64,000 nucleotides of DNA from Geminicoccaceae bacterium (lineage in GTDB: Bacteria > Pseudomonadota > Alphaproteobacteria > Geminicoccales > Geminicoccaceae): contig JANQNY010000016.1 in NCBI GenBank assembly GCA_028279345.1, positions 1 through 64,000 of the forward strand. The letters are read 5' to 3'. Below, one piece after another: positions 5,227-49,170 of the stretch. The notes under the pieces are model-generated. The model made no database searches. It saw only the letters and a program-made list of their open reading frames with translations, and was not told where the DNA came from. The position numbers and the translations under genes are program-made. Position 1 is the first letter of the stretch, and every line of letters starts with the position of its first letter.

Positions 5227-7254
5227 ATGACACGCCATCTAGTCACAGCAGGGGGTGCGCCCGAAAGCCAACGGCAGCGCGAACCCTCGCTTGTGCTGCT
5301 CGATGAACTCTGGCGCCGTCAACCCCAACTTGCTCTGATCAACCTGCTGCTCGGCATCATCGTGGTGATCGTGCTGCTGCCGGTCGTCGGCTGGGAGCCG
5401 GTCAGGTTTTGGGCGGCGTTACTCCTGATTTCTCAGGCCCTCCGGCTCCACGATTGGCGGCTCGCACGCCAGTGGCCACCGGAGCTGCGCGATCGCCGCC
5501 TGCCGCCGTGGCGGCTTGCGCTGGTGTCTGGGGCGACCGGTATGGCCTGGGGGGTGCTCGCGCTGCTCCTCATCGGCACGCCGGAACCCACGGTCCGCGT
5601 GTTCGTGCCGTTCGTCATCGCTGGCATGGCCGCCGGCTCGATCACCGTTCTCTCGGCCTGTCCGCCTGCCTACGCGGCGTTTCTGGCCTGCGCGCTGGGA
5701 CCCTATGCGATCCAGCAATCCTTCCAACCGGGACCCGAGGCCGACTGGCTGGCGCTCATCACGGCGCTCTACGGTGTGGGTTTGGTGTTGGTTGGCCGGC
5801 ACTTGCACGCCGGTCAGCAGCGCCTAGCGGCTCTTTACGGGCGCAACGGGAGACTGGTTGCCGCGTTGACGATGGCGCGTGCTGCGCTCGAGGAGCGTGT
5901 GCGTGCGCGCTCGGAGGAGTTGGAAGAGGCCAACGCGGTGCTGGCAGAGGAGGTCCGCCGCCGACGCCACGGCGAGCAGCATGCACGCGAGCAAGCGCTC
6001 ATCGACCCGTTGACTGGATTGCCCAATCGCACACTCTTCCTGGATCGGTTGACCGTGGCGCTCGCTCGGGCGCGCCGCAAGGGTGGGCGCGTGGCCGTCG
6101 TGCTGATCGACGTCGACCGGTTCAAGCTGATCAACGACGGACTGGGGCATTTGGCCGGCGATGACGTCTTGCGGAAGCTCGCCCGGCGGCTCGTCAACAC
6201 CATCCGCGCGAGCGACACCTTAGGGCGTTTCGGGGGTGACGAGTTCATCGCACTCTTCGGCGATCTACGCACGGTCGACGACGCGCTGACCGCGACCGAT
6301 CACCTGCACGCGGCCGCAGCCGCCACCTGCGACGAGAATCCGCTGCCAGCCGACATATCCTTGAGTGTGGGTATTGCCGTTTATCCAGATCACGGCGAGG
6401 CGCCGGAAGAGTTGCTGGGTGGCGCCGACATCGCCCTCTACCAGGCGAAGGTCCGCGGTCGAGCGCGGACCGAGATGCTTGGTGACGCGCAGGTCGAAGC
6501 TATCAGAGCACGTCGCCAGAACGCTGTTGCTTGGCGTGAGGCGGTCCTCCGTGGGGACGTCGAGGTGGTTTGCGCGCGCCGGCGGCGCAGCGGCGGCCAG
6601 CGGGTCGCTGCAGTGGCGGTTTCTGCCGTCGACCGCCAGATCGGTCCCGGGATCGGGCTCTCCGAGACGGCTCGCAGCAGCGGCTACCTGCGCGAGTTCG
6701 AGACCGCCGTGCTGCGTCGGGCCGTGACCGCAGCGGGTCGCACGCGCGGACCGGCTCTTGCTGTCGCTATCTCACGGGCGACCTTGGTGGCCACCGGGTT
6801 CGAGGCCGAGCTGCTCGAGCTACTTGCACGGCATCAGCTAGCGCCGCATCGGTTGGAGCTAGCACTCCCCGAGGACGCTTGGACCGACCAGCTCGACGAC
6901 AATCCGGATCCGGTGATCGGCCGGCTACGCGCCGCCGGCATCCGCTTCCTCCTCGACGCGTTCGGCAGTGGAGCGGCGTCGCTCGACGTCTTGCGAGGTG
7001 CGCCGGTCGATGGCGTCCGGTTGGCGCCGGAACTCGTCTCGGGAGCGACGAGCGCGAAGCTGGCCAATGCGCTGCTGACCAGCGTCCTGAGCGTCGCCGC
7101 CGCGCGCAAGCTGAACGTGGTGCTGGCGAGGGTCGACGCATGGCCCCTGACGCTCGCGGCCCGTACCGGCGAGTGTTTCGTTGAGGACAACGCCGAGCTG
7201 AGCCTCAGGGCGGCCTTCGCAGCGGTTGAGGAAGTCAACGAGCTGCGAGCCTGA
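5227..7254 (+). CDS. membrane GGDEF diguanylate cyclase with degenerate EAL domain
   Basis: 675-residue signalling protein. Residues about 30-200 carry five to six hydrophobic segments (membrane sensor, unnamed type), then a charged coiled-coil-like helix (about 215-255, ALEERVRARSEELEEANAVL), then a GGDEF domain. The active site is intact: RFGGDEFIAL with GGDEF at 336-340, and an RxxD product-inhibition site (RASD, 327-330) exactly five residues upstream. The C-terminal about 230 residues align in pattern with EAL domains, but the catalytic EAL is missing and the DDFG loop reads LDAFGSGAASLDVL. Expected role: c-di-GMP synthesis with feedback control, the EAL remnant serving as a sensor or scaffold. 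It stands alone between two intergenic gaps. Confidence 0.88.
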   Translation: MTRHLVTAGGAPESQRQREPSLVLLDELWRRQPQLALINLLLGIIVVIVLLPVVGWEPVRFWAALLLISQALRLHDWRLARQWPPELRDRRLPPWRLALVSGATGMAWGVLALLLIGTPEPTVRVFVPFVIAGMAAGSITVLSACPPAYAAFLACALGPYAIQQSFQPGPEADWLALITALYGVGLVLVGRHLHAGQQRLAALYGRNGRLVAALTMARAALEERVRARSEELEEANAVLAEEVRRRRHGEQHAREQALIDPLTGLPNRTLFLDRLTVALARARRKGGRVAVVLIDVDRFKLINDGLGHLAGDDVLRKLARRLVNTIRASDTLGRFGGDEFIALFGDLRTVDDALTATDHLHAAAAATCDENPLPADISLSVGIAVYPDHGEAPEELLGGADIALYQAKVRGRARTEMLGDAQVEAIRARRQNAVAWREAVLRGDVEVVCARRRRSGGQRVAAVAVSAVDRQIGPGIGLSETARSSGYLREFETAVLRRAVTAAGRTRGPALAVAISRATLVATGFEAELLELLARHQLAPHRLELALPEDAWTDQLDDNPDPVIGRLRAAGIRFLLDAFGSGAASLDVLRGAPVDGVRLAPELVSGATSAKLANALLTSVLSVAAARKLNVVLARVDAWPLTLAARTGECFVEDNAELSLRAAFAAVEEVNELRA

Positions 7255-44096: not shown

Positions 44097-45608
44097 ATGC
44101 TCGACGGCGTCCTCGCGGGTCTCGGCACTGCCTTCTCGTTCTACAACATCCTCATGGTGGTTGCCGGCTGTCTGATCGGCACCCTGATCGGCATGCTCCC
44201 GGGGCTCGGGCCCATGTCGATCATCGCCATCATGATCCCCGTGGCGATCCAGCTTGGTGACCCGTCCAGCGCGCTGATCATGCTCGCGGGCGTCTACTAT
44301 GGCGCCATCTTTGGCGGCTCGACCTCGTCGATTCTCATCAACGCGCCCGGCGTGGCCGGCACGGTTGCGACCTCGTTCGACGGCTATCCGATGGCGATGC
44401 GGGGCGAGGCCGGCAAGGCGCTCACCATCGCCGCGGTCGCCTCCTTCGCCGGGGGTACGGTGGGCGCGGTCCTCTTGTTTCTCTTCGCACCCGCCCTGTC
44501 ATCAGTGGCGGTGCTCTTCTGGTCCGCCGAGTACTTCGCGTTGATGCTCGTGGGCCTCTCGGCGATCGCTGCCTTTGCCGGCCGCGGCAAGGTGGTGAAG
44601 GCGCTCTTGATGACCGTCTTCGGGCTCATGCTGGCCACCGTCGGCGAGAGTGCCCTCTTCAACGCGCCACGCTTCACCATGGGCCTATTAGACCTGCAGA
44701 GCGGGTTCAACTTCGTCACCTTGGCCATGGCGCTCTTTGCGCTCCCTGAGGCAATCCACCTGATCCTCGATCCGTCCCGCGGTGCGGCGGCCAGATCGGG
44801 CGGCACGGACATCAAGAACCTGCGGATCACGCGAGCAGAGGCCCGCCGCATCGCACCGGTCGTGGGCCGTCAGTCGATCCAGGGCTTTCTCATCGGCGTG
44901 ATGCCCGGCGCGGGCGCGACGCTGGCTTCGTTCCTGGGCTATGCGGTCGAGCGCAACCTGGCGAAGGACGACGAGCGGGGCGAGTTCGGCAAGGGCTCGA
45001 TCAAGGGCCTTGCTGCGCCCGAGACCGCCAACAACGCCGCCTGCACGGGCTCCTTCGTGCCACTCCTGACCCTCGGCATCCCGGGCTCTGGCACCACCGC
45101 GATCCTCTTGGGCGCACTCATCGCGCTCAATGTCAATCCGGGCCCGCGGCTGATGATCGATCGTCCGGAGGTCTTCTGGGCGGTCATCATCTCCATGTAT
45201 CTCGGCAACATCGTGCTCTTGGTGCTCAACCTGCCGCTGATCCCCTACATCGCCAAGCTGCTGGCGGTGCCCAGGAACTTCCTCATCCCGTTCATCCTCT
45301 TCTTCGCCATGGCCGGCGCCTATATCGGCCAGAACAACTCGACCGAGCTCTTGATCCTCGTTGGCCTCGGCGTGATCGCGACCATCCTGCGCTTCGCGGA
45401 CTACCCGCTGCCGCCACTCCTGATCGGCTTCATCCTCGGACCGATGCTTGAGAACAACTTCAGTCGCGCCATGCTCAATGCCGACGGCATCAGCTTTCTG
45501 TGGGAACGGCCAGGGACGCTGGCGCTGGTCATCCTGGGCATCATCCTCGTGCTACTGCCGTACATAGGCCAGTTCCGCGCCCCGCGCAGGGCGGCGCAAG
45601 CGGACTGA
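44097..45608 (+). CDS. tctA: tripartite tricarboxylate transporter large membrane subunit
   Basis: 503-residue permease with about 12 helices. TctA hallmarks: GTLIGMLPGLGPMSIIAIMI, YYGAIFGGSTSSILINAPG, QSIQGFLIGVMPGAGATLAS, ETANNAACTGSFVPLLTLGI and PGSGTTAILLGAL. The paired glycine-proline loops form the transport core. Ion-driven import of a carboxylate delivered by TctC is expected. Last gene of tctCBA; beyond it base composition drops sharply at the island. Confidence 0.94.
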   Translation: MLDGVLAGLGTAFSFYNILMVVAGCLIGTLIGMLPGLGPMSIIAIMIPVAIQLGDPSSALIMLAGVYYGAIFGGSTSSILINAPGVAGTVATSFDGYPMAMRGEAGKALTIAAVASFAGGTVGAVLLFLFAPALSSVAVLFWSAEYFALMLVGLSAIAAFAGRGKVVKALLMTVFGLMLATVGESALFNAPRFTMGLLDLQSGFNFVTLAMALFALPEAIHLILDPSRGAAARSGGTDIKNLRITRAEARRIAPVVGRQSIQGFLIGVMPGAGATLASFLGYAVERNLAKDDERGEFGKGSIKGLAAPETANNAACTGSFVPLLTLGIPGSGTTAILLGALIALNVNPGPRLMIDRPEVFWAVIISMYLGNIVLLVLNLPLIPYIAKLLAVPRNFLIPFILFFAMAGAYIGQNNSTELLILVGLGVIATILRFADYPLPPLLIGFILGPMLENNFSRAMLNADGISFLWERPGTLALVILGIILVLLPYIGQFRAPRRAAQAD

Positions 45609-45793
45609 CGCGGGCGCGGCCCCGGCCCTTCCTTGGACAACCGGCCTCGCCTATCCCACGATCTTCCTTCTTAATCCTCATGTCCGACAAACCGATGTCG
45701 GCACGTCACATATGGCACAGGAGATTGACATGCCATCAACAACGAGATAATCGCCAAAAGCGTGGTTTATTTCGCGGATCGTATCGTATTCCG

Positions 45794-45822
45794 TTGAATG
45801 TAGCCGCGTATGTAAATATATT
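45794..45822 (+). promoter_or_regulatory. predicted promoter of island operon
   Basis: TTGAAT (45794-45799) and TATATT (45817-45822) are separated by exactly 17 bases, near-consensus for sigma-70. The start point would fall near 45829, leaving about 20 bases of leader before the ATG at 45848. A second candidate, TTGACA at 45725 with GATAAT 15 bases on, lies further upstream. Confidence 0.6.
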
Positions 45823-45847
45823 AACAATTAGCGTGACTGGAAACAGG

Positions 45848-46135
45848 ATGACCTCCGACAATCAAACAATTAGTTATCTTGATGTCATAGGTTCCGAAGA
45901 GGATATTGCGGATATCCAAGATCTTGTTAAGAATTTTAAAGATGTAAAAATTAGTGATTCCGATGTTTTTTCACCAACTGACAGTGAATTTAGCGGCGCG
46001 GAGGTCGTAATCGGTTTAAAGATTGTTGTCCTTTGTATCAGTGGAGCGGCCGCCACCGTCAAGCTTTTGAATGAATTGCACAGATACCGAAACCGATCAC
46101 CTAGTTTATTTGTGAGGCCGAACGAAACGAATTGA
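45848..46135 (+). CDS. small single-TM protein, possibly EACC1-like (island)
   Basis: 95-residue protein of unrecognised family. Layout: a short N-terminal strand (TISYLDVIGSEED), an acidic helix (about 17-30, EEDIADIQDLVKNF), a linker, one hydrophobic helix (about 53-71, VVIGLKIVVLCISGAAATV) and a basic tail ending in a strand (RSPSLFVR). This order resembles the small EACC1 constant components described next to conflict-system effectors, but the resemblance is by eye only. ATG 45848 follows GGAAACAGG and a near-consensus promoter. It precedes the 579-residue HExxH protein by 65 bases, same strand, same A/T-rich composition. Function unknown; a membrane-linked partner of the larger protein is inferred. 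Confidence 0.7.
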   Translation: MTSDNQTISYLDVIGSEEDIADIQDLVKNFKDVKISDSDVFSPTDSEFSGAEVVIGLKIVVLCISGAAATVKLLNELHRYRNRSPSLFVRPNETN

Positions 46136-46200
46136 ATCAACCGGTGGTTGAGAATTTCCATTCTCTAGTTCTACGCTCAACGTTGTAGATTGTTCAGCCG

Positions 46201-47940
46201 ATGCCTGCTTGGGCGCAACTTGATACGGCCACACTCTGTATCCGGTGGGATTATGGTTCCCTCACGCGACCGAACGGATATCCGCAACGCTTTGATTTTT
46301 CCGCCCCCGACCACAAATTACATGCGAACCTCTTTTACTTGGACGATTCTTCGTGTTCCGAATATCTGTGTCAGATCGATGACTACGAGCAGCGTCTTCG
46401 AAGCGGCTTTCTTTGCGCAATGCAATGGCATGAGCAGCGACATTTCGTAGATTTTGTACTCACGAATTTCGGAGCAAGTCGCGTCCGCGCATACCTTGAG
46501 ATGTATAGCAGTTTTGATCACCTCCTTGGTGCACTGTGCGATGTGGGTCCTGATGTGGGATTCCCATTGAGTGTGTACGGGGACGAGGTAAGGCGATCTC
46601 GCCTAGGTGCGAGAGAACCAAGTGAACGTCTCGCCGACATTGCACGTTACGTGAAATTAAGAGCTACGTTTTTTGACGGCGATCATTACGAGCTCAGGGG
46701 TCCGAGCGGTTCAGTCTATTTTGGTGGTCCCGCGCAACTTGAAGCGTTGGCATTCTATGCACAGTTCGGGGTGACACAAAGCGTCTTTGGTCTCAACTTC
46801 GCTCGTGAGGTCTGGCACCGCACACCGTCATCTTCGCGCTCCGCTCCGATAAATAGATCAATTGAATCACTCTTCAGAATTTTTGGCATAGAATTTATTA
46901 CAGAAACTTCTAGCGGAGACTTCCTTGATGTCAGATTCATTCACGCGCTGTTGTTGGGTTCTCTTTTTTGCACACGAAAGGATTCATCTACGGAGATGGA
47001 CGAGCACGAAATGGCGCGCTATTCGCCGTCAAGAAGGCTGTTGAAACTTCTTGAGTTCTTTCACGCTGCTGGTTTTGCAGGACGTGTCGAGAGACCACTT
47101 GAAGCTTGGGAAAGGGTGGAGGACGCGAGTCTCAAGCTTTGGGGCCGAACTTGTACTGAAGAGATGCAAGAAGATGTAAAGTTTGAGGGCGAGTTTTTAC
47201 AGGAGGTGGTGAAACGCGATCAGACAAGGTCGTACGCACTCGATGTGTTTCGTGATTTTCACCGCATGAGGTGTCTGCTTTTGAATTGCCTTATTGAAGA
47301 TCCTTCGAGCGTTGTCGAGCCAAGTCGTTATTATGAAGAGACGCGTTTGAAGGTGCGGCCATCTCAGGTTCTTTGCTTTAGGTCGCCTCTCAGCGGAGAT
47401 TTGGATGCTCAATCGGTCCTGTTTTGGTCTTTGGACATGTTTGGAGAACCTAGTGCGTCGGCACTGTTAGTTGATCGGTGCCCCGACGAAGGAACTATTG
47501 CAGATAATTTTATAGAGCCCGTTTGCAAAGAAAGCTGGAAACTGGTAACGCTGAAAATGGCACCTCTTGCGAGGCTGTCGCAATCTGGCCGCCGTGTTAG
47601 AAGTCTTTTGGATCGTGAAATATTGGAAGCGGAAGGGCACCTACAGCAGTTGGGTCTTAAACCGATGTACGAACCATTGTATCGGTATCCGATAACTGAT
47701 CGAAGTGCCGCACTTTATTTTGAGATGGTGAACTTAGATACGATGAATTGCGATTTCACCGGCGAAGAGTTGGTGTCGGAACAAGCAATTCTTATTTCAT
47801 CGTGGGATTTTGTTGCCTTTCGAAGATTGCGTGACCATGCAATTCTTGGGCGACGTTCTGCGAACATTATTAGGGATATGCAAAATGGTGAATTCGGGCT
47901 GTGGATGACTCACCGGAGGTATTGGGAGCTTGTTCAGTAA
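46201..47940 (+). CDS. unknown protein with HExxH zincin signature (island)
   Basis: 579-residue protein of no recognised family, no signal peptide and no transmembrane helix, so probably cytosolic. Its most telling feature is WHEQRH (HExxH: H77, E78, H81) followed after 18 residues by E100 (AYLEMY), the spacing of gluzincin metallopeptidases. The segment HEQRHFVDFVLTNFGASRVR also looks like helical active-site packing. The rest is mixed alpha/beta and rich in aromatic residues and Arg, without P-loop or repeats. Codon usage and A/T-richness match the small upstream gene and differ from all neighbours. The start ATG 46201 has no good ribosome-binding site, so coupling or another start is possible. 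Peptidase activity is a prediction only. Confidence 0.75.
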   Translation: MPAWAQLDTATLCIRWDYGSLTRPNGYPQRFDFSAPDHKLHANLFYLDDSSCSEYLCQIDDYEQRLRSGFLCAMQWHEQRHFVDFVLTNFGASRVRAYLEMYSSFDHLLGALCDVGPDVGFPLSVYGDEVRRSRLGAREPSERLADIARYVKLRATFFDGDHYELRGPSGSVYFGGPAQLEALAFYAQFGVTQSVFGLNFAREVWHRTPSSSRSAPINRSIESLFRIFGIEFITETSSGDFLDVRFIHALLLGSLFCTRKDSSTEMDEHEMARYSPSRRLLKLLEFFHAAGFAGRVERPLEAWERVEDASLKLWGRTCTEEMQEDVKFEGEFLQEVVKRDQTRSYALDVFRDFHRMRCLLLNCLIEDPSSVVEPSRYYEETRLKVRPSQVLCFRSPLSGDLDAQSVLFWSLDMFGEPSASALLVDRCPDEGTIADNFIEPVCKESWKLVTLKMAPLARLSQSGRRVRSLLDREILEAEGHLQQLGLKPMYEPLYRYPITDRSAALYFEMVNLDTMNCDFTGEELVSEQAILISSWDFVAFRRLRDHAILGRRSANIIRDMQNGEFGLWMTHRRYWELVQ

Positions 47941-47984
47941 GTCTGTTTTGAATGTCGGTATTATTGAGTTAGGAGGTAAGGAGA

Positions 47985-48053
47985 TTGTATTACGTGAATA
48001 TGGGACAGCGTATAGGGTCGGACGCAGTAACTGAGATGGAGGGCCGGCATTAG
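47985..48053 (+). CDS. possible 22-codon ORF with strong RBS (island)
   Basis: TTG 47985 to TAG 48053 encodes 22 residues beginning YYVNMGQRIGSD. It is preceded by AGGAGGTAAGGAG, by far the strongest ribosome-binding sequence in the island. The peptide resembles no known family and could be chance, a decayed gene start or a small peptide. Low confidence. Confidence 0.25.
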   Translation: MYYVNMGQRIGSDAVTEMEGRH

Positions 48054-48168
48054 GGCCAAAGAAAATTGATCAAGCAATAGGCGTTTTTTTCCGGCACTTT
48101 ATAATTGTGCACTGAAGTATCTGATTAGGAATATCTGTCGACGTTCTCCAGCGCTGCGGAGTCTGGCG

Positions 48169-49170
48169 CTACCCGCCGGTGACGCTCATGTGCCGAGCGA
48201 CGGCCGGCCGCTTGCGGCGGCGGTCGATGACGAAGTCGTGGCCCTTGGGCTTGCGGGTGATGCCTTCTCGGATGGCAGCGATGAGGGCTGCGTCGTCGGC
48301 GTGGGCGCGCAGGGGCGCCCTCAGGTCGGCCGCGTCCTCCTGACCCAGGCACATGTACATGGTGCCGGTACAGGTGACGCGCACGCGGTTGCAGCTCTCG
48401 CAGAAATTGTGGCTCAGCGGCGTGATGAAGCCGAGCCGGCCGCCGGTCTCCTCGATCCGCACGTAGCGCGCCGGCCCGCCGGTCGAGTAGGGGATATCCG
48501 TCAGTCGCCACCGCTGTTCGAGGTCGGCGCGGACACGCGAGAGAGGCAGGTACTGATCGGTCCGGTCCTCGTCGATCTCACCCAAGGGCATCGTCTCGAT
48601 GAGGGTGAGGTCGTAACCCTCCGCACCGCACCAGGTGATCATCCGGTCCAGCTCGTGCTCGTTCACGCCCTTGAGCGCCACGGCGTTGATCTTGATCTTG
48701 AGCCCGGCACGCTTGGCGGCCTCGATCCCGCTGGTCACCTTGTGGAAGTCGCCCCAGCGGGTGATCTGGCGAAAGGTCTGTGCGTCAAGCGTGTCGAGCG
48801 AGACGTTGATGCGTCTTACGCCCGCGGCGACCAGCGCGTCGGCGTGGCGCTCGAGCTGGCTGCCATTGGTGGTCATGGTCAGCTCGTCGAGGGCGCCGCT
48901 GGTGACATGCCGACCGATCGCTTGGACCAATTGCATGATGTTGCGACGGACCAGCGGCTCTCCGCCTGTGAGCCGGATCTTGCGCACACCGAGCGCGATG
49001 AACGCCCCGGCGAGGCGCTCCAGCTCCTCCAACGTGAGCAGCTCACGCTTCGGCAGAAACGTCATGTGCTCGGCCATGCAGTAGCCGCAGCGGAAATCGC
49101 AGCGGTCGGTGACCGAGAGACGGACGTAGGTGATACGCCGCTGGAACGGATCGACGAGCGGGGTTGTCAA
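48169..49170 (-). CDS. moaA: GTP 3',8-cyclase (molybdenum cofactor synthesis)
   Basis: 333-residue radical-SAM enzyme of the first step of molybdopterin synthesis (GTP to 3',8-cH2GTP, together with MoaC). The N-terminal [4Fe-4S] motif CDFRCGYC (C24, C28, C31) and the C-terminal second cluster ([14 protein letters not shown]) are both intact, as is the functional C-terminal Gly-Gly (SVTGG). Its position at the right margin of the A/T-rich island marks the return to chromosomal sequence. It shares purpose with modABC and the molybdoenzyme at the right edge. Confidence 0.95.

Follow-up and report, generated by a model that had tools for sequence, protein, structure and literature searches.

In the genome of a Geminicoccaceae bacterium, we identified a cassette of two genes that probably represents a divergent EACC1 two-gene conflict system with a new family of putative metallopeptidases in the place of the caspase. 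The EACC1-caspase pair was predicted as a two-gene conflict system, designated System 4, by Kaur and co-workers (Kaur et al. 2020; PMC7159879; Pfam PF19953). In the passages of that paper's text dealing with EACC1, the 3' partner is a caspase and less often a cNMP cyclase, and a metallopeptidase is not named (PMC7159879). Likewise, the text passages on EACC1 examined in relevant open papers do not mention a pairing with a metallopeptidase, although a listing in supplementary tables is still possible. The cassette is located within the window, i.e. the whole stretch of 64,000 nucleotides that was analysed, and has the following features:

45610 to 48160: low-GC island carrying both genes (GC content 0.43-0.51, compared with 0.62-0.68 in the flanks)
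45848 to 46135, forward strand: P0001, a small gene of 95 codons for a predicted, divergent EACC1-like component
46201 to 47940, forward strand: P0002, an open frame of 579 codons whose product is a putative HExxH metallopeptidase, the C-terminal region being long and mostly helical
46429 to 46443, forward strand: HEQRH (H77, E78, R80 and H81), the predicted catalytic metal-binding motif in helix 62-87, whose invariance among homologues was imposed by the search pattern
46498 to 46500, forward strand: E100, proposed as third ligand in the initial annotation and not conserved
46723 to 46764, forward strand: G175-G-P-A-Q-L-E181-A-L-A-F-Y-A-Q188 with a conserved GG and the invariant residues E181 and Q188; E181, in helix 176-196, is the candidate third metal ligand

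The island has a size of about 2.5 kb and lies between the tripartite-transporter gene tctA, which ends at 45608, and the moaA gene (48169 to 49170, reverse strand). The DNA similarity to five related genomes breaks off at the end of moaA. Moreover, the P0002 gene was not found in one genome of the same genus and in 29 genomes of the same family, and the P0002 family as a whole is very rare and patchily distributed. The GC content and this distribution suggest that both genes have been acquired horizontally.

The initial annotation had stated that the P0002 protein resembles no known family, and this could be confirmed: searches of Pfam, PADLOC, NCBIfam and PHROGs, sequence searches against the PDB and tblastn gave no usable match. 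The homologues described below were also unmatched by Pfam, NCBIfam and PADLOC, with PHROGs being run for the window protein only. Direct searches with P0002 in viral contigs, genome contigs, plasmids, phages, 60 related genomes and 385 genomes of the same class revealed nothing convincing, and matches with E-values of 0.02-0.6 were treated as chance and ignored. Relatives were obtained by scanning DNA with degenerate motifs. The pattern HExxHFx[QD]xxxTxxG served only as a lead in a first scan of viral contigs, which yielded long in-frame ORFs, including that of locus L043 with HEMRHFHDLLITPYG. The narrower motif HE.RH[FY].[DE]...T.[FY]G was then scanned over 85,000 genome assemblies. Among the 19 loci retrieved, about ten encode relatives of P0002, whose hosts belong to the Rhizobiales, Acidobacteria, Actinobacteria and Spirosoma; the viral contig (L043) contributes one more. 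The homologues are those of L048, L049, L051, L054 (in part), L058, L060, L062, L063, L065, L043 and L061. The closest set comprises the proteins from Mesorhizobium (L048), Bradyrhizobium (L063), Acidobacteria (L060, L062 and L054, the last being a fragment), Acidimicrobiales (L065), Kineococcus (L058), Spirosoma (L049) and Rhodopila (L051), which share 19-25% identity with P0002 over its length. When the window protein and the motif region were excluded, residues 105-579 of P0002 still reached 226 bits with an HMM built from eight homologues. Thus, the homology is independent of the motif. The analysis supports that P0002 and its homologues constitute a new family that is absent from the Pfam, NCBIfam and PADLOC models. 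Of the peptidase family envisaged by the initial annotation, the novelty, the HExxH motif near the N-terminus and the long C-terminal region have been borne out, whereas the designation as a peptidase is putative.

No further members of the family emerged from motif-free profile searches of the genomes of the same class and of the class of the Acidobacteriia copy, from scanning viral sequences for the E181 motif or from tblastn searches of plasmids with four homologues. The ORFs in L052, L056 and L059 that matched the motif were regarded as chance findings, the Acinetobacter proteins of L053, L055 and L064 and the protein of L066 are distant relatives at best, and a VMAP-M8 match of one family member (E 0.03) was too weak to be used. 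Proteins of the type HExxH[FY]xxxxxTx[FY]G that have an ExxA motif further downstream form a broader and more varied group, with members in viral contigs, Acinetobacter and one member of the Rhodobacteraceae (L046, 2433-3734; L047, 4645-6060; L066, 3428-4960; L053, 6099-7457), and L046 adjoins an IetA/IetS pair. The homologue from Acidobacteriaceae (L054, 143-1995) is split over two overlapping frames, owing either to a frameshift in this copy or to an error in the assembly.

The HEQRH motif occurs once in P0002, at residues 77-81, and exactly 18 residues separate H81 from E100, as had been pointed out in the initial annotation. By itself, an HExxH motif is weak evidence because it arises in 2.4% of the shuffles at the composition of P0002 (0.19% for HExxH-18x-E). 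However, the motif is not due to chance, since full-length homologues carry it as well, even though they were collected with a pattern demanding HExxH. H77, E78 and H81 are present in all homologues, as the pattern required. The scan pattern demanded, or nearly demanded, the identity of H77, E78, R80, H81, T88 and G91 and an acidic residue at position 84, so that agreement at these positions cannot be counted. Outside the motif, twelve sequences agree without exception at D8, P122, E181, Q188 and P387, which the scan did not impose. The invariance that the initial annotation expected of the metal site does not extend to E100: most relatives have Q, R, I or S at this position, and only 5 of the 16 proteins examined have a glutamate (a glutamate at +19 is also found in L051, L054, L066 and L046). 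E100 was therefore rejected as the third ligand, which leaves the classical gluzincin spacing of 18 residues unsupported, and the '18x-E' part of the motif is probably a coincidence. In contrast, E181 is invariant in our sample. It belongs to a 'GGxxQLEALAxxxQ' helix, and its distance from H81 is about 100 residues, with a spacing of 98-103 residues to the second histidine in the core members. In the more distant HExxH proteins L046, L047, L053 and L066, a comparable [hydrophobic]-E-x-x-A motif follows after 112-127 residues. Because E181 is invariant, E100 is variable and the distant HExxH proteins possess a similar ExxA motif, E181 is the better candidate, and most likely this residue provides the third ligand for the metal that the P0002 family is predicted to bind.

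An AlphaFold2 model built from twelve family sequences (pLDDT 76, pTM 0.81) assigns residues 62-87, 89-103 and 176-196 to helices, which hold the HExxH motif, E100 and E181, respectively. Thus, the segment around the motif is indeed modelled as helical, as the initial annotation had proposed, and H77/H81 and E181 are positioned on separate helices. A model from the single P0002 sequence was discarded (pLDDT 34). A Foldseek search with the model of pTM 0.81 against the PDB, whose outcome is provisional because the model is a prediction, gave no match at E<=0.001 and no gluzincin or zincin fold, and a search against viral models gave no usable match. The P0002 family resembles the gluzincins (clan MA(E), including thermolysin M4, M1, M48 and BlaR1/M56) in having HExxH on one helix and a conserved downstream glutamate on another. 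It differs from them by the spacing in its core members, by the additional conserved residues R80, D84, T88 and G91, which were selected by the pattern, and Q188, and by the lack of a sequence or fold match to solved structures. Because neither a gluzincin nor any other PDB fold matched the model, membership of P0002 in the gluzincins is unproven.

The small gene P0001, which is conserved in most relatives, had been overlooked in the initial annotation. Its product consists of an N-terminal segment of the alpha/beta type followed by one strongly hydrophobic helix with a patch of small residues (VVIGLKIVVLCISGAAATV; Kyte-Doolittle maximum 2.3 in a 19-residue window). With an HMM built from seven homologous small genes, P0001 obtains 24.1 bits, while the best of 1000 shuffles reached 12.3 bits. 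It ends about 20-30 residues before most of its homologues and lacks their C-terminal beta/alpha part. Moreover, 65 nucleotides separate it from P0002, whereas a short gap or an overlap is usual; a shortening of the window copy is possible (region 46120-46200). The large gene is directly preceded by a small gene in the same orientation in the window and in L048, L049, L051, L060, L062, L063, L065 and L043. These small genes comprise 95-144 codons, encode one hydrophobic helix and end between 23 nucleotides inside the large gene and 65 nucleotides before it, the latter in the window; an overlap of 4 nucleotides occurs in four loci. Thus, the small and the large gene are paired, with the L043 small gene (only 3.5 bits against the family HMM) being assigned by position and layout. 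There is no adjacent small gene in the Kineococcus locus L058, and the upstream region of L054 is cut by the contig end. The Variovorax locus L061 has an upstream gene for a membrane protein of 187 amino acids with a hydrophobic stretch (5552-6115), which is of a different type from the EACC1-like gene and possibly reflects a partner swap.

The profile of eight small-gene family members, all of which possess the hydrophobic helix, was compared by hhalign with an EACC1 alignment of about 30 sequences, mostly from actinobacteria. The two are co-linear along their length (P 1.8e-6, score 34.5-34.8), whereas 150 shuffled alignments scored at most 17.2 and the reversed alignment 13.6. At the level of sequence profiles, the small-gene family is thus similar to EACC1. 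None of the single small proteins passes the Pfam EACC1 model (best score 14.7 bits, cut-off 23.6 bits), and in this respect P0001-family proteins differ from EACC1 by being too divergent for the model. The cassette shares with EACC1-caspase systems a small 5' gene with one transmembrane-type helix that includes small residues and is flanked by alpha/beta elements, a larger 3' gene with a predicted peptidase in its N-terminal part, and a patchy occurrence. However, no caspase-family match to Pfam was obtained for P0002 or its homologues, which instead have an HExxH domain of no known family. Conversely, the 3' partners at the sampled EACC1 loci are caspase-like where they could be read by eye, and HExxH is absent from all downstream ORFs taken there.

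The neighbourhoods of several relatives contain genes related to defence or to mobile elements. For instance, the Acidobacteriia copy has HsdR, HsdS and IetA nearby, the Edaphobacter copy a phage integrase and a subtilase, and the Rhodopila copy toxin-type genes of the RES and PIN families, while the L043 copy adjoins a phage minor tail gene. Genes for Prok-E2_E, ThiF/JAB, TCAD9, DUF6527 and patatin lie within about 13 kb of the Bradyrhizobium copy; upstream of the pair (L086, 1238-5187), Prok-E2_E, a ThiF/JAB fusion, a TCAD9 protein and DUF6527 make up a cassette for ubiquitin-like conjugation that includes a ternary-system domain. As the copies from Mesorhizobium, Spirosoma and Acidimicrobiales have no obvious defence neighbours, this context is suggestive, not proof. 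The cassette probably has an anti-phage role of the abortive-infection type, and we infer this defence function together with membrane sensing by P0001 and proteolysis by P0002. By analogy with the EACC1-caspase systems, the small EACC1-like component with its one membrane-type hydrophobic helix would act as a sensor for a membrane change that accompanies infection and would then free the protease. The latter would be soluble and belong to a metallopeptidase family not described so far; H77, H81 and most likely E181 would coordinate its zinc, E78 would be the general base, and a long helical region may be regulatory or select substrates. The freed protease could then cleave a cellular, phage or self target, whereupon growth would stop.

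It is unlikely that the HExxH protein of the same conflict system is not a hydrolase and either performs other metal chemistry, such as an oxidative peptide modification as in RiPP HEXXH enzymes with the small protein as substrate, or carries a structural or sensory metal site. A spacing of 98-103 residues between the second histidine and the glutamate, as for E181, is unusual for gluzincins and would fit such an enzyme. Furthermore, supposed HEXXH peptidases have proved to be alpha-ketoglutarate-dependent oxygenases, and in the RiPP systems of PflC, PosC and ChlH, the HEXXH protein is also encoded beside a small gene, a layout that our cassette resembles (PMC12636437). However, no member of the P0002 family matches an NCBIfam model, and a scan of 12 members gave nothing relevant. 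The small protein, in contrast to a precursor peptide, contains a membrane-type helix, and its similarity to EACC1 runs the length of the protein. Moreover, no RiPP enzymes are evident among the neighbour genes read by eye, and the neighbourhood of the family is more defence-like than biosynthetic.

The window copy might be inactive or in decay, with HExxH kept while the system is defunct; this possibility is raised by the shortened EACC1-like gene and the loss of the C-terminal zinc-ribbon cysteines of some relatives. In addition to the missing C-terminal beta/alpha part of P0001 and the gap of 65 nucleotides, C517 (47749-47751) is the sole cysteine left in P0002 of the zinc-ribbon-like CxxC...CxxC found in L058, L060, L062 and L065. 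We regard this decay as quite unlikely, for P0002 is open over 579 codons and retains all family-invariant residues, and the full set of cysteines is also missing from L048, L049 and L063. Finally, a classical HExxH-18x-E gluzincin, in which the third zinc ligand would be E100 while E181 would have a structural role, is very improbable despite the exact spacing in P0002, since a ligand should stay constant among active members and E100 is replaced in most close homologues.

Bacterial EACC1-caspase pairs are predicted immune systems that are centred on caspase-like proteases. With an HExxH motif, a glutamate about 100 residues on and an unmatched fold, the P0002 proteins may, with an even chance in our estimation, be a new metallopeptidase family that has replaced the caspase as the executioner of EACC1-type immune systems linked to the membrane, the protease class being interchangeable behind one conserved sensor. 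If this is true, the constant element of these systems would be the EACC1-like protein rather than the caspase, and a protease family missing from the defence and domain libraries searched here would be added.
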